Shown: positions 541-7,608 of the stretch, one piece after another
How the letters are laid out: the number at the start of each line of letters is the position of its first letter
How positions within the stretch are numbered: position 1 is the stretch's first letter
Assembly (NCBI GenBank): GCA_003696125.1
Contig: RFHZ01000626.1
Coordinates: 1-7,671, forward strand
From: Nitrospinota bacterium
GTDB lineage: Bacteria > Tectomicrobia > Entotheonellia > J063
Length of the DNA: 7,671 nt
Reading direction: 5' to 3'
Notes under the pieces: generated by a model
Seen by the model: the letters and a program-made list of their open reading frames with translations, nothing else
Told to the model about the DNA's origin: nothing
Database searches by the model: none
Translations under genes and position numbers: made by a program

Positions 541-589
541 ACAGAAAACCGCTTTTCTCCGTTTCTGGAATACAGGGAATCCAGAAATG
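541..589 (+). promoter_or_regulatory. Partition-protein operator boxes and ribosome-site hairpin
   Basis: ACAGAAAACCG begins at 541 and is part of a dyad, AGAAAA-CCGC-TTTTCT (543-558). TTTCTGGA (562-569) and TCCAGAAA (580-587) form an 8-bp perfect inverted repeat. Pairs G561-T588 and C560-G589 extend it. The 10-nt loop carries the parA Shine-Dalgarno AGGGA (574-578), and the stem covers the start codon. The boxes resemble the ACAGAAA repeats downstream of the operon. I infer an autoregulatory site for the RHH protein at the DNA level, with possible translational masking in RNA. Confidence 0.45.
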
Positions 590-1216
590 ATCATCGCCGT
601 CCTGAACCAAAAGGGAGGAGTAGGCAAGACCACCATTACTCTCCACCTAGCCTATGGCCTCTCCAAACGGGGAGAGAAAGTCTTAGTGGTCGATGCTGAC
701 CCGCAGGGATCGGCCAGAGATTGGGCTGCTGCCCGCAGGAACGATCCCCGGCTACCGGTAGTGGGCTTAGATCGACCAGTGCTCCACCGGGATCTCCCTG
801 CGCTGGCGGCTGACTATGACCAGGTGGTGATCGACGGACCTCCCCGGGCCACAGAGATCGTCCGGTCGGCGATTTTAGCGGCTGATGGAATTCTTATCCC
901 CGTGCAACCCTCTCCCTACGATGTGTGGGCCTGTGCCCAGCTCATTACGCTGATCAAAGAAGCCTCTGTATTTAAAGAAACCCTGAAAACCGCTTTTCTG
1001 TTGAATCGGAAGATCGTCAATACGGTGATCGCTACCGCGGTGAGAGAAGCCCTGGCAACCTATCAGATCCCGGTCTTGCAGTCGGTGATCTCTCAGCGGA
1101 TTGCTTTTGCCGAATCCGCGGCGACAGGCAGTGTCGTCTGGGAGACCGATCCCCGGGGAAAAGCAGTGCAAGAAATAGAGCAGGTGATTGATGAACTACT
1201 GGAGGTGTGGCAATGA
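587..1216 (+). CDS. parA: ParA-family partition ATPase (type Ib, short form)
   Basis: This 209-residue P-loop ATPase should drive segregation of the replicon to daughter cells by ATP-dependent, nucleoid-associated patterning together with a DNA-binding partner. The deviant Walker A motif KGGVGKTT is at residues 9-16, the switch motif VLVVDADPQGSA at 32-43, and Walker B VVIDGPP at 80-86. The protein starts directly with MIIAVLNQKGG, so there is no N-terminal helix-turn-helix, which is typical of short type Ib ParA. ATG 587 is preferred over an upstream ATG at 476 because AGGGA lies 8 bp before it and it matches the family's N-terminus. The extra 37 residues of the longer frame look unrelated. 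It overlaps the RHH gene by ATGA, implying translational coupling. Other members of the family act in cell biology or conjugation (MipZ- or VirC1-like), but the RHH partner favours partition. Confidence 0.9.
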   Translation: MIIAVLNQKGGVGKTTITLHLAYGLSKRGEKVLVVDADPQGSARDWAAARRNDPRLPVVGLDRPVLHRDLPALAADYDQVVIDGPPRATEIVRSAILAADGILIPVQPSPYDVWACAQLITLIKEASVFKETLKTAFLLNRKIVNTVIATAVREALATYQIPVLQSVISQRIAFAESAATGSVVWETDPRGKAVQEIEQVIDELLEVWQ

Positions 1217-1431
1217 CGGCAAAGAAGAAGCAGGTAGACATTCCGATCAAACCGGACGTAGAACAGTGGGTGTATCAGGAAGCAGCACCCAAAAAACGGC
1301 CGGAGAAGCTGAAGCGGTTAACGATCGACATCCCCGCAGAACTCCATCGAAAAATTAAGCTTAAAGCGGTCCAAGAGGGGGAGACCATTGCGCAGCAGCT
1401 CCGGCGACTTTTGGAGGAGCATTATCGCTAG
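1213..1431 (+). CDS. Ribbon-helix-helix DNA-binding protein, probable ParB/ParG-type partition partner
   Basis: This is a 72-residue basic protein. Residues 34-41 (KRLTIDIP) form the expected DNA-contacting beta strand. Residues 42-54 and 57-70 fit helices A and B of a CopG/Arc-type fold, with a G at 56 in the turn. The N-terminal 30 residues are Lys/Pro-rich and probably flexible, as in ParG, where the tail contacts the ATPase. ATG 1213 has GGAGGT six bases upstream; a GTG at 1207 in the same frame is less likely. The gene overlaps parA by 4 bp. Expected roles are binding the centromere repeats, activating ParA and repressing the operon through the 541-589 boxes. The RHH fold is clear; the exact partition role rests on context. 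An antitoxin is the alternative, but no toxin gene follows. Confidence 0.8.
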   Translation: MTAKKKQVDIPIKPDVEQWVYQEAAPKKRPEKLKRLTIDIPAELHRKIKLKAVQEGETIAQQLRRLLEEHYR

Positions 1432-1867: not shown

Positions 1868-2347
1868 ATGTATACACGACAAAAGCGGTTAGTAGCAACT
1901 GCCAACCAACAAGGACTATTCCCGGCAGGACAGGTGGTGAAACTTACTGGGATCTCCAGACAGACCTTGCACTTTTGGTCAGCCACTGGCTTTCTTCAGG
2001 CCACACAAGAAGCACAGGGAACAGGGAAATGGCGATTATATAGCTTCAAAGATATTGTCGCTCTCCGCACAGCAAAGCGACTCAGAGATGCCGGGATCAG
2101 CTTGCAAGGACTGCGAAAAGTGATCGCTACCTTACAAACCGTTCACAACCTGGAACATCCTTTAGCTGAAACTTACCTGGTTACAGACGGCTACGATGTC
2201 TACCAGGTTGTCGAAGGTGGAGAGACGCTCCTCTCCCTTCTGAGACAACCGGGACAGGGAGCATTTTCTATTGTGATTGATCTCTCAGAGGTAGTCCGTG
2301 AGCTCCACGAAGCGATTGAAAAAGCCAAAATACCTGCAGCGAGTTGA
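1868..2347 (+). CDS. MerR-like helix-turn-helix transcriptional regulator
   Basis: This is a 159-residue protein. Residues 18-46 (FPAGQVVKLTGISRQTLHFW and on) form a MerR-type helix-turn-helix. The segment around 52-90 (GKWRLYSFKDIVALRTAKRL, then RDAGISLQGLRKVI) fits the wing and the second helical pair of that family. The C-terminal part (about 100-150) lacks the cysteine-rich metal site of classical MerR. It has instead a small compact domain including YLVTDGYDVYQVV and GAFSIVIDLSEVVREL, of unknown ligand. ATG 1868 is chosen because AGGAGG ends five bases before it; GTG 1862 overlaps that site. It sits alone between the partition operon and rep, so control of partition, rep or its own gene is plausible. 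The target is not shown by the sequence. Confidence 0.8.
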   Translation: MYTRQKRLVATANQQGLFPAGQVVKLTGISRQTLHFWSATGFLQATQEAQGTGKWRLYSFKDIVALRTAKRLRDAGISLQGLRKVIATLQTVHNLEHPLAETYLVTDGYDVYQVVEGGETLLSLLRQPGQGAFSIVIDLSEVVRELHEAIEKAKIPAAS

Positions 2348-2509
2348 AAGCCATCAAGTGCTAGGATTGCAATAAACACCGGGGACCTGCTTACGCTTTC
2401 AGACTCATGCAACAAAAACGGAGCTTACCCAAGCTACTTCTCTGAAGTCGTCAAAAGAGAGTTGCGACAGGCCAAAGAAGAGAACCGCAGAAAGCATGTA
2501 ACATCCTAA
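2348..2509 (+). other. Open frame continuing in register after the regulator's stop codon
   Basis: After the TGA at 2345-2347 the same frame stays open for 53 codons to a TAA at 2507-2509. Its second half looks protein-like (YPSYFSEVVKRELRQAKEEN). It contains no ATG or GTG start and no ribosome site. It may be the lost tail of a longer ancestor, a stop-readthrough extension, or chance. Nothing else is evident in this stretch. Confidence 0.2.
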
Positions 2510-2540
2510 AAAAATGCCCCGTCCTGCCAGGGAACGGGGC
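2508..2540 (-). terminator. Intrinsic terminator for leftward transcription
   Basis: Read on the - strand, GCCCCGT (2540-2534), an 11-nt loop and ACGGGGC (2522-2516) form a 7-bp GC-rich stem, followed by A and then seven T (2514-2508). This is a textbook rho-independent terminator. No convincing - strand gene lies to its right, so it probably ends a non-coding RNA or leftward read-through. A weak - strand promoter (TTGACC 2697-2692, 16 bp, TAGATC 2675-2670) would give an RNA of about 155 nt. Confidence 0.65.
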
Positions 2541-2564
2541 AACAACGGGGAGAGAAAGCCTGGT

Positions 2565-2870
2565 ATGTACACCTACTATGTGCGGATCTTCTGCCAACTC
2601 TGGAAGACGTTCGATCCCGGACTCTGGTGGATTGCGCTAGTCAAGGCAAAGTGGCCAACACTTTTGGACGATCTAGATCACTTCCAACTTTGGTCAAAGC
2701 TTCCCCAACTCTTCCAAGACCAAGACAATTCCTTTGTCCGACTCAGGGAACAATTCGGTCTCTTGCCAGTTTTTGCACAGAAGCGGTCTAGAAATAAAGT
2801 GCGACGTCTCTGGAACAGCGCAGACCCGACAGTAATATTACACCAGAAGGCAGGGGAAAAAAGATGGTAA
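2565..2870 (+). CDS. Hypothetical small protein, doubtful
   Basis: The frame gives 101 residues from ATG 2565, or 118 from ATG 2514. The 2514 start lies inside the leftward terminator and has no ribosome site, so 2565 is preferred, though the nearest GGAG is 13 bases away. The protein is rich in Trp, Leu and Phe (VRIFCQLWKTFDPGLWWIAL) with a basic C-terminus. No signal peptide or known motif is seen. It ends 84 bp before rep. A rep-leader peptide or a small regulator is conceivable, but the weak start and unusual composition make a spurious frame quite possible. Confidence 0.35.
   Translation: MYTYYVRIFCQLWKTFDPGLWWIALVKAKWPTLLDDLDHFQLWSKLPQLFQDQDNSFVRLREQFGLLPVFAQKRSRNKVRRLWNSADPTVILHQKAGEKRW
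2810..2838 (+). promoter_or_regulatory. Weak candidate rep promoter
   Basis: CTGGAA (2810-2815) and TAATAT (2833-2838) have a 17-bp spacer. A start near 2845 would give a rep leader of about 110 nt that contains the whole antisense RNA target. A second weak pair is TTGCAC (2773-2778) with TAAAGT (2795-2800). Rep could also be read from the regulator's promoter upstream. Confidence 0.25.
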
Positions 2871-2873
2871 CAG

Positions 2874-2917
2874 AAAAAGAAAAGCCCCAAGCCAAAATTT
2901 GGGGAAGGCATTGGGGC
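2874..2917 (-). terminator. Intrinsic terminator of the predicted antisense RNA
   Basis: On the - strand GCCCCAA (2917-2911) pairs with TTGGGGC (2890-2884), and the U-tract TTTTCTTTTT (2883-2874) follows at once. The 20-nt loop holds an inner CCAAA/TTTGG dyad. On the + strand the same arms lie in the rep leader. There they can also pair as CCCCAA (2885-2890) with TTGGGG (2899-2904), so two mutually exclusive leader structures are possible. Confidence 0.65.
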
Positions 2918-2940
2918 CAAGGGCAAAACCTTGCATCTCT
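2874..2940 (-). ncRNA. Predicted countertranscribed antisense RNA to the rep leader
   Basis: A strong - strand promoter over the rep start codon and an intrinsic terminator about 70 bp downstream define an RNA of about 67 nt, starting near A2940. It would fold as a 5' hairpin (CAAGG 2933-2929 with CCTTG 2922-2918, 6-nt loop) plus the terminator hairpin. It is fully complementary to the rep mRNA just upstream of the Shine-Dalgarno site. Small antisense RNAs in this position limit Rep synthesis in several plasmid families, by attenuation or by blocking translation. The promoter and terminator are seen directly. The RNA and its function are inferred. Confidence 0.6.
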
Positions 2941-2947
2941 AGAGGAG

Positions 2948-2976
2948 ATAATACATGATGCAGACTGAGTTGTCAA
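2948..2976 (-). promoter_or_regulatory. Strong leftward promoter over the rep start codon
   Basis: On the - strand the -35 is TTGACA (2976-2971), the spacer is 17 bp, and the -10 is TATTAT (2953-2948), one base from consensus. This is the best promoter in the window. It overlaps the rep Shine-Dalgarno site (2943-2948) and start codon (2955). It therefore drives RNA into the rep leader and away from rep, and transcription of rep would collide with it. Confidence 0.7.
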
Positions 2977-5507
2977 GAGCAAATGGTAGCACTATCCCTG
3001 AAATTACAAACGCTTTCCATCCAGAGCACTTGGCAGACCTGCAAAAAAGCGGACTTTCCCTCGCTACCATTGAAGCGGCAGGTCTGTATTCCGTCCGCCC
3101 CCAGGACATTCCCAAACTCCTAGGCTTTAACCCTCCCAAGGTGCAATCTGCTTTAGTCTTCCCATACCCCGGAACGAAGGATTTTTGCCGTCTCAAAGTT
3201 TTCCCGCCCTTCCGGGACAAAGACGGGCATACAGTGAAGTATCTTCAACGAGAAAATAGCGGGGTACACCTGTACTTTCCCCCTGGAGTAGTGAAAATTC
3301 TCCAAACAACAGAAACGCTCCATTGGACCGAAGGCGAAAAGAAAGCACTCAAACTCACTCAAGAGGGTTTCCCCTGCATCGGCCTGGGTGGAGTCTGGAA
3401 TTGGAGAGAAAAAGGCCAGGTAATACCGGCGTTGGACCAGATCTTCTTGGAGGGGCGGCATTGTATCATTGTTCCTGATTCGGATACCTGGGAAAAAGAC
3501 GATGTGCTAAGAGCCGTCTATGCGTTTGGTCGGGAACTAGAACAGCGGGGAGCTATGGTTTCTGTGTTCAAGCTCCCCCAAGGGCAAGCAGGGGAGAAAT
3601 GGGGAATTGACGATTACCTGGTTGCTCTAGACACCCAGGGGATCCCGGCTAAGGAGGCGATGGAGAAATTGCAGTGCCTGACCTTGGCTGATCCGCAATT
3701 TGACCAAGCCCGCTGGTGGTATCCGGGATGGAGAAAACGACAAGGGGAAGAGGTGGTTCTTAGACCGGAGCTAGATTTGCTCTTGGAGCGATTGCGTGAA
3801 ACCAAGGACCCCAGGATAGCGTATCATGCTGTACCCCTCTTGGCCGTATTGGATAGTGGTATGGTAGACTGGATAAAAGCAGAGATTAAAGGTGTCTGCC
3901 GTGCGGTCGATCTTCGTCGGTTGAACGCAGAAATTACACAGGCAAAGCGCAATGTACAGGCCCAACACCCCAAGGAAGCTTATAAAAAAGCACGGGGGTC
4001 AGGCCAGGATCTCCCAGCAATCCCCGCTGATGATGGCGATCTTCCCAAAGTAACGCAACAGGCCTGGGATGCTCTCCTGGCTGCAAATAATCCCCCTTTC
4101 CTCTTCCGTTATGGTGGACTTCCAGTGCGGATCGAATACGATGACAAAAAAAGACCGATTGCGCGGGAAATAACGCCAGACCGACTTCGACATGTCCTGG
4201 CCCGGGTCGCATTTTGGTACCGCTATGTGCTGGATAAAAAGACGAAGGAGGTATCGTGCGTCCCTGCTCTCCCACCGATGCCGGTGGTGAAAGATGTGTT
4301 AGCGATGCCAGATTTAGCTCTCCCCATCCTCACTCGCATTGTGGAAGCGCCGGTATTTACTCCAGACGGAACCATCCATACCGATCCCGGCTATCATCCT
4401 ACTGGTCAGATCTATTATGCCCCTACACCAGGATTTGTTCTCCCCTCTGTGCCAGCTTCCCCTACTCCAGACGACCTACAACGTGCTCGGGACCTTATTT
4501 TAAGCGAACTACTTGGCGATTTTCCATTTGTAAGCGATGCAGAAAGAGCACATGCCGTCGCTTTACTCCTCCTGCCTTTTGCGCGGGACTTGATCCCTGG
4601 TCCGACGCCACTGCACCTGATCGAGGCTCCCAGTGCTGGAACAGGAAAAGGTCTCTTGGCTGAGGTATTGCTCCTCCCAGCTCTGGGCCAATCAGCTGCC
4701 ATCATCACCGAAGGGAGAGACGAAGAGGAATGGCGTAAACGTATTACCGCTATTCTCCGAAATGGACCGTCGGTAGTACTTATTGATAACCTGCGCCGAC
4801 GCCTGGACTCTGCAAATGTATCTGCGGCTATTACCGCCACAACTTGGGAAGACCGTATTTTAGGACATTCTGAAACTGTCCGGCTCCCGGTTCGGTGCAT
4901 CTGGGTGGCCACCGGCAATAATCCGGCCCTTTCAACCGAAATCGCCCGGCGCACTGTTCGGATCCGGATTGATGCCAAGAACGACCGCCCTTGGAACCGG
5001 GATAGGGTCTCTTTCCGTCACCCGGACCTGCCCAAGTGGGCAACCCACCATCGTGCTGAACTCGTCTGGGCATCCTTGACCCTGATCCAGGCCTGGATCT
5101 CTCAGGGGCGACCGGGCAAAACCCCCGAAATAACGTTGGGAAGATTTGAATCCTGGTCAAAAACCATGGGAGGAATTCTGGAGGTGGCCGGCATTCCTGG
5201 GTTTCTAGAGAATCTGGATGAGTTCTATGACTACTCTGACGCTGAAGGCGAAATGTGGCGTACGTTCATTGATGCCTGGTGGGACCACTTTGGAGACACT
5301 CCGGTAGGTGTCAAGGACCTCTGGGGCCTTCTGACTAGGGAAGACACTGATCTCTCCCTCCCATTGGGCGAAGGCAATGAAAAAAGTCAACGCATCAGGT
5401 TAGGAAAACTGCTCAAGGCAAATCGCGACCGGCAATTTGCTGAATGTCGGATCGTCTATCACGGAAAAAAGCAGCGTGCGGATCAATGGAGATTGATCCC
5501 AGCGTAA
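2955..5507 (+). CDS. Replication protein: Toprim-like (DUF3854-type) domain plus AAA+ helicase domain
   Basis: This 850-residue protein probably initiates replication by unwinding the adjacent origin. Residues about 20-230 resemble the Toprim-like DUF3854 module: acidic TEGEKKALKL (125-134), IIVPDSD (171-177) and GIDDYL (217-222). A linker of uncertain fold follows, about 230-500. The helicase ATPase domain has Walker A EAPSAGTGKG (557-566), Walker B SVVLIDN (606-612), a sensor-1-like WVATGNNP (650-657) and a likely arginine finger in EIARRTVRIRID (662-673). The last 65 residues (VGVKDLWGLL to QWRLIPA) fit a winged helix, common at the end of plasmid and phage primase-helicases. The Walker A ends in K-G instead of K-S/T. 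Start: AGGAG at 2943-2947 serves ATG 2955; ATG 2958 is the alternative. The gene stops 8 bp before the first iteron repeat. A phage-satellite helicase is an alternative. Confidence 0.85.
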   Translation: MMQTELSRANGSTIPEITNAFHPEHLADLQKSGLSLATIEAAGLYSVRPQDIPKLLGFNPPKVQSALVFPYPGTKDFCRLKVFPPFRDKDGHTVKYLQRENSGVHLYFPPGVVKILQTTETLHWTEGEKKALKLTQEGFPCIGLGGVWNWREKGQVIPALDQIFLEGRHCIIVPDSDTWEKDDVLRAVYAFGRELEQRGAMVSVFKLPQGQAGEKWGIDDYLVALDTQGIPAKEAMEKLQCLTLADPQFDQARWWYPGWRKRQGEEVVLRPELDLLLERLRETKDPRIAYHAVPLLAVLDSGMVDWIKAEIKGVCRAVDLRRLNAEITQAKRNVQAQHPKEAYKKARGSGQDLPAIPADDGDLPKVTQQAWDALLAANNPPFLFRYGGLPVRIEYDDKKRPIAREITPDRLRHVLARVAFWYRYVLDKKTKEVSCVPALPPMPVVKDVLAMPDLALPILTRIVEAPVFTPDGTIHTDPGYHPTGQIYYAPTPGFVLPSVPASPTPDDLQRARDLILSELLGDFPFVSDAERAHAVALLLLPFARDLIPGPTPLHLIEAPSAGTGKGLLAEVLLLPALGQSAAIITEGRDEEEWRKRITAILRNGPSVVLIDNLRRRLDSANVSAAITATTWEDRILGHSETVRLPVRCIWVATGNNPALSTEIARRTVRIRIDAKNDRPWNRDRVSFRHPDLPKWATHHRAELVWASLTLIQAWISQGRPGKTPEITLGRFESWSKTMGGILEVAGIPGFLENLDEFYDYSDAEGEMWRTFIDAWWDHFGDTPVGVKDLWGLLTREDTDLSLPLGEGNEKSQRIRLGKLLKANRDRQFAECRIVYHGKKQRADQWRLIPA
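5480..5499 (+). other. Stem-loop at the 3' end of rep
   Basis: GGATCAAT (5480-5487), loop GGAG and ATTGATCC (5492-5499) form a perfect 8-bp stem within the last rep codons, 16 bp before the iterons. There is no T-run, so it is not an intrinsic terminator. It could stabilise the mRNA end or mark the origin border. Confidence 0.35.
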
Positions 5508-5515
5508 CCAGGGGC

Positions 5516-5557
5516 GGTGAATGTTGAGTGAATGTTGGTGAATGTTGAGTGAATGTT
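5516..5557 (+). repeat. Tandem iterons: two perfect 21-bp units
   Basis: A 21-bp unit (5516-5536) is repeated exactly and without a gap (5537-5557). Each unit holds GTGAATGTT twice, giving starts at 5517, 5528, 5538 and 5549, or 10-11 bp apart. One helical turn per repeat puts all four on one face of the DNA, as expected for cooperative initiator binding. An inverted copy follows at 5566-5573. Confidence 0.75.
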
Positions 5558-5612
5558 TTTTTGTGACATTCACCGAAATAAATACTTAAAAATCAAGTAG
5601 TTGCGGATGTCA

Positions 5613-5740
5613 AGTGAATGTGGTGAATGTTTTTCCTGTACCCTGTACAGAGCGAAATGGATATATATATCTCAGGGGGGAGATATATATATATCTCCCC
5701 TAAAAAAAAGAGTACACGGAAAACATTCACCACATTCACT
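5613..5740. repeat. 128-bp imperfect palindrome carrying paired iterons
   Basis: Arms 5613-5644 and 5709-5740 are inverted copies with 29 of 32 positions matching; the outermost 21 are perfect. Each arm holds two iterons 9 bp apart. The same symmetry axis (between 5676 and 5677) also pairs 5661-5673 with 5680-5692. Nearly the whole element could thus extrude as one cruciform or fold as one RNA hairpin. Its position in the middle of the iteron array suggests the core of the origin. Confidence 0.8.
5677..5700. repeat. AT-rich 24-bp perfect palindrome at the origin core
   Basis: GGGG plus AGATATAT (5677-5688) is followed by its exact reverse complement (5689-5700), with a central run of alternating A and T. 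It competes with the longer palindrome, since 5681-5692 can pair in either structure. Alternating AT melts easily, so this is the best candidate for the DNA unwinding site. An A-run follows, not a T-run, so it is not a + strand terminator. Confidence 0.6.
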
Positions 5741-5780
5741 CCGATACCATATGAGCTGATAAATCAATATGTTGAGTCTG

Positions 5781-5815
5781 GTGAATGTTGTCGCAAACAT
5801 TCACTTGACATTCAC
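5781..5815. repeat. Iteron inverted pair plus one extra iteron
   Basis: GTGAATGTT (5781-5789) and AACATTCAC (5796-5804) form a 9-bp perfect inverted repeat with a 6-base centre. GACATTCAC follows at 5807-5815. Inverted iterons of this kind are often used for Rep dimer binding and autoregulation or handcuffing. That role is inferred. Confidence 0.6.
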
Positions 5816-5821
5816 CTTCCC

Positions 5822-5851
5822 TTGCTTCACTGTGGTCTGTAAATCTATAGA
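5822..5851 (+). promoter_or_regulatory. Candidate promoter of the downstream cluster
   Basis: TTGCTT (5822-5827) and TATAGA (5846-5851) have an 18-bp spacer. A start near 5858 gives a leader of about 58 nt that includes the 13-bp inverted repeat at 5867-5901. No better pair is seen before the gene at 5916. Confidence 0.4.
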
Positions 5852-5866
5852 AATCAACACCTTACA

Positions 5867-5901
5867 CAGGAAGTGAATGGCGTAACAACATTCACTTCCT
5901 G
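5867..5901. promoter_or_regulatory. 13-bp inverted repeat embedding iteron words, likely operator
   Basis: CAGGAAGTGAATG (5867-5879) and its exact reverse complement (5889-5901) are separated by 9 bases. Each arm contains GTGAATG, the iteron core. The element ends three bases before the ribosome site AGAGGG (5904-5909) of the next gene. It could be a Rep-bound operator just downstream of the promoter, an mRNA hairpin limiting access to the start, or both. Confidence 0.55.
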
Positions 5902-6745: not shown

Positions 6746-6958
6746 ATGAAATCGTATGACCCTCTTCGGGATTTGCAAGCCGTTCACCGTCGTCTCCAGC
6801 GGGCTTATCCCAAGAATTGGGCACTCTCCGGGTCGGTCATCTACGATCCAGAGCAGGGGATAGCTGAAGGGGAATTGTCACTCCCCTTAGTAGATCCTCA
6901 GGAGATCCAGAAGATAGAAGAGGAGAAAGAGCCATGCAAAAGCACTGCACGCTCATAA
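6746..6958 (+). CDS. Small hypothetical protein in the nuclease operon
   Basis: This is a 70-residue protein beginning MKSYDPLRDLQAVHRRLQRA, with a basic helical N-terminal third, a short central beta-like part and an acidic Glu-rich stretch near the end. No known domain is recognised. ATG 6746 lies five bases after the previous stop, with GGGAGGA at 6727-6733, a rather long 12-base spacing. A longer frame opening at 6653 would run inside the previous gene and is not favoured. Its last 25 bases overlap the nuclease gene, supporting real, coupled translation. Confidence 0.6.
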   Translation: MKSYDPLRDLQAVHRRLQRAYPKNWALSGSVIYDPEQGIAEGELSLPLVDPQEIQKIEEEKEPCKSTARS

Positions 6959-7608
6959 CGGGCATCGGACTTACTGTCTTTCTTCTCCTTCCCCTTCCTC
7001 TCTTTGCTGCCACTACCTTCACCGGCAAAGTCGTTGGGGTGATCGACGGTGACACCATCGAAGTCCTCCGGGAAGGCAAAGCCGTCAGAGTGCGGTTAGC
7101 TGGAATCGATGCCCCAGAGCGTAGACAGCCGTACGGCCGGAGAGCCAAGCAATACACCTCTGCATTGGTCTTTGGCCAGGTCGTTACGGTGCAGGTGCAA
7201 AGTATCGGGAAGTATGGCCGGATCATCGGCAATGTGCTGCTGTCTGATGGTCGGAACCTGAGTCAGGAGCTGGTCAGGGCAGGCTACGCCTGGTGGTATC
7301 GACAGTATGCGCCCCATGATACCACCCTACAGCGCCTAGAAAGAGAGGCACGGCTTGCCCAACGGGGTCTGTGGGCTGATCCTACACCAATCCCACCGTG
7401 GGAGTATCGAAAAAAAGCAGAGAGCTTCCGGAAGGGATCATCCTCTGTTCCGGTGGCTGGCCCGATCATCGGGAATCGCCGGAGCAAAATCTACCACTGG
7501 CCGGGATGTCCCAATTATAACCGGATCTCCCCGGAAAACCGGGTGGTCTTCTCTAGTCGGCAAGAAGCGGAAGCGGCCGGGTATCGGGCGGCCAGGAATT
7601 GTCGGTAA
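6934..7608 (+). CDS. Exported thermonuclease (SNase family) with Ada-like C-terminal Cys motif
   Basis: This is a 224-residue protein. Residues 1-26 are a signal peptide: basic start, core LTVFLLLPLPLF, probable cleavage near Ala25-Ala26. Residues 30-150 are a staphylococcal nuclease domain: VIDGDTIEV (36-44), RLAGIDAPER (54-63) and GKYGR (92-96). By alignment with the S. aureus enzyme, D40, R54, D59, E62 and R96 match its D21, R35, D40, E43 and R87. The family cleaves DNA and RNA using Ca2+. The tail (GNRRSKIYHWPGCPNYNRIS to AARNC) resembles the short Cys-containing module common after such nucleases and related to the Ada metal-binding fold. It should act outside the cytoplasm. AGGAG ends eight bases before ATG 6934. 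Nucleases of this type are common beside plasmid transfer genes. Confidence 0.88.
   Translation: MQKHCTLITGIGLTVFLLLPLPLFAATTFTGKVVGVIDGDTIEVLREGKAVRVRLAGIDAPERRQPYGRRAKQYTSALVFGQVVTVQVQSIGKYGRIIGNVLLSDGRNLSQELVRAGYAWWYRQYAPHDTTLQRLEREARLAQRGLWADPTPIPPWEYRKKAESFRKGSSSVPVAGPIIGNRRSKIYHWPGCPNYNRISPENRVVFSSRQEAEAAGYRAARNCR

Follow-up and report, generated by a model that had tools for sequence, protein, structure and literature searches.

The stretch of DNA analysed here (the window, 7,671 nt) is the whole of one contig (C986) in a 4.18-Mb host assembly of 990 contigs, which is 94.8% complete with 8% contamination. The host belongs to a sparsely sampled phylum, represented by five genomes in the genome set that we used. 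The contig is plasmid-like and its binning to this host is tentative; a circularity check found no terminal overlap between its ends. All recognisable genes of the window run rightward (Table 1). The parA gene and its ribbon-helix-helix partner are flanked, beyond chance expectation, by ACAGAAAA(C/T)CG repeats at positions 541–551 and 1450–1476, which likely form a partition site. They are followed by a gene for a MerR-type regulator, by orf118 and by rep. Downstream of rep lies an array of thirteen repeats, whose unit can also be written GTGAATGT(T/G/C), and beyond the array are orf274, a small ORF and a gene for an SNase-type nuclease (6934–7608), whose N-terminus is signal-like and which carries a fused zinc-binding domain of the Ada type.

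Table 1 Coordinates of the features discussed in the text
Feature	Position	Strand	Remarks
parA and ribbon-helix-helix partner gene	587–1431	+	
MerR-type regulator	1868–2347	+	
orf118, gene upstream of rep	2565–2870	+	start at 2565 with S-D; alternative start at 2514 without S-D
Candidate 34-codon leader ORF	2864–2968	+	MVTEKEKPQAKIWGRHWGQGQNLASLEEIIHDAD; own S-D, −8.4 kcal/mol
Predicted antisense RNA	2874–2940	−	~65–67 nt; start near A2940; ends predicted from promoter and terminator
Terminator U-tract	2874–2883	−	TTTTCTTTTT; U at 9 of 10 positions
Leftward intrinsic terminator hairpin	2884–2917	−	7+3 bp, one bulge, 13-nt loop, −16.6 kcal/mol
5′ stem-loop of predicted antisense RNA	2918–2933	−	CAAGG/CCTTG, 6-nt loop
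Hairpin closing the rep S-D	2935–2949	+	ATCTCT/GGAGAT; predicted fold
rep Shine-Dalgarno (S-D), AGGAG	2943–2947	+	anti-S-D duplex −9.1 kcal/mol
−10 element, TATTAT	2948–2953	−	fills the spacer between the rep S-D and the rep ATG (2955)
−35 element, TTGACA	2971–2976	−	within rep codons 6–8
rep	2955–5507	+	N-terminal DUF3854, C-terminal SF3/D5-type helicase fold
Repeat array	5517–5895	+	GTGAATGTT; 13 copies, in either orientation, flanking an AT-rich palindrome (5660–5700)

The repeat array is likely the replication origin. The preliminary description had placed the rep leader beside an iteron array; the array exists, but its position is downstream of rep. Its 20-nt tandem unit had no match in viral contigs. 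A lone copy of the origin repeat, GTGAATGTC, is found at 1829–1837, 31 nt before the MerR-type gene, and may be there by chance.

In Rep, a DUF3854 (Toprim-like) domain is combined with a helicase fold of the SF3/D5 type. In a predicted structure of moderate confidence (mean pLDDT 69.5, with poor N-terminal and far C-terminal parts), the C-terminal part resembles SF3-type primase-helicases (SaPI5, poxvirus D5/E5). The C-terminal half, and only that half, also aligns with Ruegeria and Caulobacter phage proteins and Streptomyces plasmid proteins. The nearest relatives of Rep are partial, with 45–55% over one domain, and the host assembly contains no DUF3854 gene besides rep. Compared with CyRepA1, in which our analysis confirmed DUF3854, Rep has 31% over 112 aa, and DUF3854 is the only domain common to both; Rep did not match the NCBI CyRepA1 model NF042913, whereas CyRepA1 itself scored 595.8 bits. 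The orf118 product matched nothing in Pfam, PHROG or NCBIfam, and neither orf118 nor orf274 had relatives in the viral contigs or genomes searched. At the DNA level, positions 2500–3100 had no relatives in plasmids (four chance-level matches of 26–27 nt) or in phages.

A predicted minus-strand promoter and terminator opposite the rep leader

The minus strand carries TTGACA, a 17-bp spacer and TATTAT (2976–2948) over the ribosome site and start of rep. This promoter, already noticed in the preliminary description, matches the sigma-70 consensus at 11 of 12 positions, and no other sigma-70 site in the window scores as well. Given the plasmid's codon usage, only 1.2% of synonymous Leu-Ser-Arg codings would produce the TTGACA of the −35 hexamer. 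The host genome encodes a housekeeping RpoD, and the pattern TTGACAN16–18TATWAT occurs 21 times in the 4.18-Mb assembly but only once when the pattern is reversed as a control (3 against 0 for the TATTAT form), which suggests that nearly all such host sites are likely to be real promoters. Most of the other 20 lie close upstream of a long ORF, at a distance of 120 nt or less. Against the reading favoured below, the −10 overlaps an S-D-to-ATG spacer that is naturally A/T-rich, and no sense promoter for rep was identified.

The intrinsic terminator first described behind this promoter was confirmed, with a stem of 2917–2911 and 2890–2884 and a U-tract reaching 2874, and three inner pairs (GCC/GGC) lengthen the stem further. 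With adjoining bases included, the hairpin reaches −18.2 kcal/mol. The first U lies 65 nt from the end of the −10. From promoter and terminator, both of which can be read directly from the DNA, we infer transcription of a leftward RNA of ~65 nt, which would be driven by a sigma-70 promoter in the first rep codons and would end in the gap between orf118 and rep. A leftward protein gene in place of an RNA was rejected, since both minus-strand ORFs score negative on codon usage. Rfam, including its antisense RNA families, gave no match within the window.

Two further terminator-like sites face leftward in the window. One (2515–2541, −17.3 kcal/mol, seven T) lies just upstream of the orf118 S-D and has no leftward gene or promoter before it; its hairpin and that of the rep leader both set a single CCCC arm against two GGGG arms. 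The other (3990–4026, −17.6 kcal/mol) is within the rep coding region.

The frequency of such a promoter-terminator pair was estimated from 6,000 dinucleotide shuffles of the window, scored for a promoter with at least 11 of 12 matches and then a terminator within 30–150 nt. The shuffles yielded 299 such promoters; with the terminator threshold set at −15 kcal/mol one of them qualified, and at −10 kcal/mol two. As a host background we used 151 kb of the assembly (302 kb of strand), which contained 20 terminators at −10 kcal/mol or better, two at −15, and one promoter of at least 11 of 12 with a qualifying terminator behind it. In a first scan, no terminator reaching −10 kcal/mol lay within the 150 nt behind any of the 20 other host consensus promoters; a slightly wider scan added one site (contig C445), with a −13.5 kcal/mol terminator barely inside the 150-nt limit. 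We conclude that the promoter-terminator pair exceeds chance.

Predicted structure of the rep leader and proposed mode of action

On the plus strand, the rep S-D is predicted to be closed in a hairpin. The mean unpaired probability of GGAG (2944–2947) is 0.055, a value equalled in 6 of 500 mononucleotide-shuffled leaders, and the plus-strand leader as a whole is well folded (z of −2.4 to −2.5). The 5′ arm of the S-D hairpin, ATCTCT (2935–2940), is the exact pairing target of the 5′ tail of the predicted antisense RNA. The candidate leader ORF bridges orf118 and rep, starting inside the orf118 stop (ATGGTAA) and ending 11 nt past the rep ATG. Its codon usage is neutral, and a comparable ORF arose in 176 of 5,000 shuffles (3.5%), a rate that makes it only suggestive.

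It had also been proposed that the plus-strand leader can form two mutually exclusive hairpins from the same bases, with attenuation or translational switching as the consequence. Both hairpins exist as sequence but they are unequal (−16.0 kcal/mol for 2884–2917 against −8.2 kcal/mol for 2885–2904), and these energies rule out a balanced two-hairpin switch. Attenuation does not hold up: the plus-strand leader lacks a U-tract behind any of its hairpins, and the alternative hairpin falls ~8 kcal/mol short of the main one. Attenuation of the pT181/pIP501 type, which needs a plus-strand leader terminator that forms upon antisense binding, fails for want of that terminator. A translational effect is favoured, because the rep S-D is predicted to be closed and the leader ORF runs through the antisense target.

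The locus has the general features of a plasmid countertranscript, namely a promoter opposite the rep leader and a short structured RNA with an intrinsic terminator inside that leader. It is probably an antisense RNA gene for copy-number control, RNAII/CopA-like, that would lower rep translation either directly or via the leader ORF. The complementarity, the predicted closure of the S-D and the positions of the ORFs are read from the sequence, whereas repression, coupling to the leader and a role in copy number are what we infer. The RNA would be complementary at every position to the stretch of the rep mRNA leader that lies ~15 to 80 nt upstream of the rep ATG, with which it would pair through a 5′ tail and two stem-loops. 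The edge of the resulting duplex would lie ~15 nt before the ATG, next to the S-D and inside the ribosome footprint, and the duplex would cover codons 5–26 of the leader ORF. Placed beside the S-D and over the leader ORF, it should block both direct initiation on rep and the opening of the S-D hairpin by ribosomes translating the leader. As plasmid copies increase, antisense RNA would rise with them, Rep would fall and replication would start less often.

We considered whether the promoter might be accidental and the terminator a mimic produced by a plus-strand hairpin, the functional element being the structured rep leader with its leader ORF. The folding of the plus-strand leader, the predicted closed S-D, the leader ORF and the coincidence of the −10 with an A/T-rich spacer speak for this. 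However, a promoter-terminator pair of this quality appeared in only 1 of 6,000 shuffles, and a hairpin serving the plus strand has no need of a minus-strand tail with U at 9 of 10 positions. We regard this explanation as unlikely.

Leftward transcription and its terminator might instead act in cis, by transcription interference or as a barrier that keeps leftward readthrough out of orf118 and the genes upstream of it. Consistent with this, strong leftward terminators are repeated on an otherwise rightward plasmid (2541–2515, ~4026–3990 and 2917–2884), three in a 7.7-kb window against two in 302 kb of host strand. However, only the terminator at 2917–2884 has a consensus promoter at the right distance, and the RNA it would end is structured and fully complementary to the leader. 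A purely cis-acting role is, in our estimate, a fairly remote prospect.

Folding also provides an argument against repression by the antisense RNA: when the RNA occupies the 5′ arm of the S-D hairpin, the S-D is predicted to be freed rather than closed. Any repression would consequently have to come from a steric block or through the leader ORF. The opposite outcome, in which the RNA is made but raises rep translation because its 5′ tail (AGAGAU) captures the S-D-closing arm, appears very improbable: with 2876–2940 in duplex the S-D unpaired probability rises from ~0.03 to 0.5–1.0 in two of three folding frames, but the third frame (2871–3010) keeps the S-D partly closed by another pairing, and we give activation little weight because the duplex edge, ~15 nt from the ATG, is within the ribosome footprint in a geometry that represses in pMV158 (PMC4485353), and because a positive loop would fail to keep copy number stable.

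Comparison with known replicon control regions

As positive controls, we applied the same promoter and terminator scan to pMV158 and two members of its family. The pMV158 record was located with the CopG repressor sequence; the record retrieved was pMV158 itself. In pMV158 the scan detected a leftward terminator whose first U lies at −56 relative to the rep start, whereas the known antisense promoter, being less consensus-like, fell under the scan threshold. In Lactococcus lactis p1, of the same family, the −35 lies at +18, the end of the −10 at −10 and the first U at −69; the corresponding positions in the window are +21, −7 and −72, all within 3 nt of p1. The layout of a plasmid countertranscribed RNA, which the preliminary description had recognised here, is borne out as a prediction by the promoter, the terminator, their position, the host's promoter usage and this pMV158-family geometry.

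The RNAII of pMV158, which is experimentally proven, is 48 nt long. Its promoter lies within the 5′ end of repB, and it represses repB translation by base pairing with the mRNA directly in front of the ribosome-binding sequences (PMC4485353, PMC5703833). In the window, likewise, a small gene precedes rep, the predicted antisense promoter is within the first rep codons, the short and fully complementary RNA would have its terminator in the intergenic gap, and the target is directly upstream of the rep ribosome site; the correspondence is one of layout only. The differences are considerable. The window's Rep combines DUF3854 with an SF3-type helicase, whereas that of pMV158 is a Rep_2 HUH endonuclease; orf118 is not CopG; the RNA would be ~65 rather than 48 nt, with an added 5′ stem-loop; and the window has a hairpin-closed classical S-D and an extra leader ORF, where pMV158 has an extended non-S-D start. 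With neither a Rep_2-type HUH initiator nor a CopG gene upstream, the window falls outside the pMV158 (Rep_2) family. The Rep proteins being unrelated, the likeness is one of design and not of family membership.

In plasmid R1 (IncFII), the antisense promoter lies upstream of tap, whereas that of the window is within rep; the RNA predicted in the window is also shorter, its coupling is a prediction, and we claim no sequence kinship. The likeness to the CopA/tap/repA system of R1 consists of a predicted antisense RNA to the rep leader and a candidate leader ORF that overlaps the target, together with a rep S-D whose predicted closure would make leader coupling necessary (PMC5717011). The R1-type features of the window, namely a candidate ORF over the target and the rep start and a predicted occlusion of the S-D, include an ORF of a kind that 3.5% of shuffles also contain.

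The preliminary description had called antisense control beside an iteron array and a DUF3854-type Rep an unusual combination. Two precedents make this an overstatement: pSYSA (PMC9978351, PMC10079941) and pSK41, which has an antisense RNA and Rep boxes (PMC5703833). DUF3854 is documented in CyRepA1/2 (PMC10079941). In Synechocystis pSYSA asRNA1 overlies a small ORF before cyRepA1 (PMC9978351), which places both the ORF and the antisense RNA locus directly ahead of the gene for a DUF3854 Rep, an arrangement also predicted for the window. However, asRNA1 is ~150 nt long, lies over the ssr7036 coding region and starts ~165 nt before rep, and a ColE1-like primer mechanism has been proposed for it (PMC9978351). 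In pSYSX, antisense RNAs are reported to lie over the S-D and start region of the cyRepX genes (PMC10899382). The rep/RNAI system of pSK41 shares with the window a rep-leader antisense RNA and repeats (Rep boxes) as origin, but its initiator is of the RepA_N type, its Rep boxes are inside rep, and the RNAI target is ~100 nt before the rep start (PMC5703833). Among distant relatives of Rep (an alignment of 14 rows), the promoter-terminator layout was absent wherever the start could be read, which says little because the leaders are too far apart to align.

A bolder and decidedly tentative interpretation is that the window holds a fused module, in which a pMV158-like RNAII also blocks an R1-like coupled leader ORF over a hairpin-closed rep S-D. 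It would then represent a previously undescribed class of replicon, with a DUF3854 and SF3-type helicase Rep and a downstream origin of bidirectional repeats, in a sparsely sampled phylum. Control of rep by antisense RNA is itself long known; the DUF3854/SF3-like Rep and the host would be its new settings, and if the leader coupling is real the system is possibly a new variant. If our reading is correct, a replicon whose Rep is DUF3854/SF3-like joins those that use antisense copy control, in a phylum for which the set contains only five genomes, and the region would constitute a compact, testable control cassette. A modular view of replicon control regions has been argued for Pseudomonas plasmids (PMC5304414). 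The window would fit such a view, with the RNAII-type layout turning up again beside an unrelated Rep.
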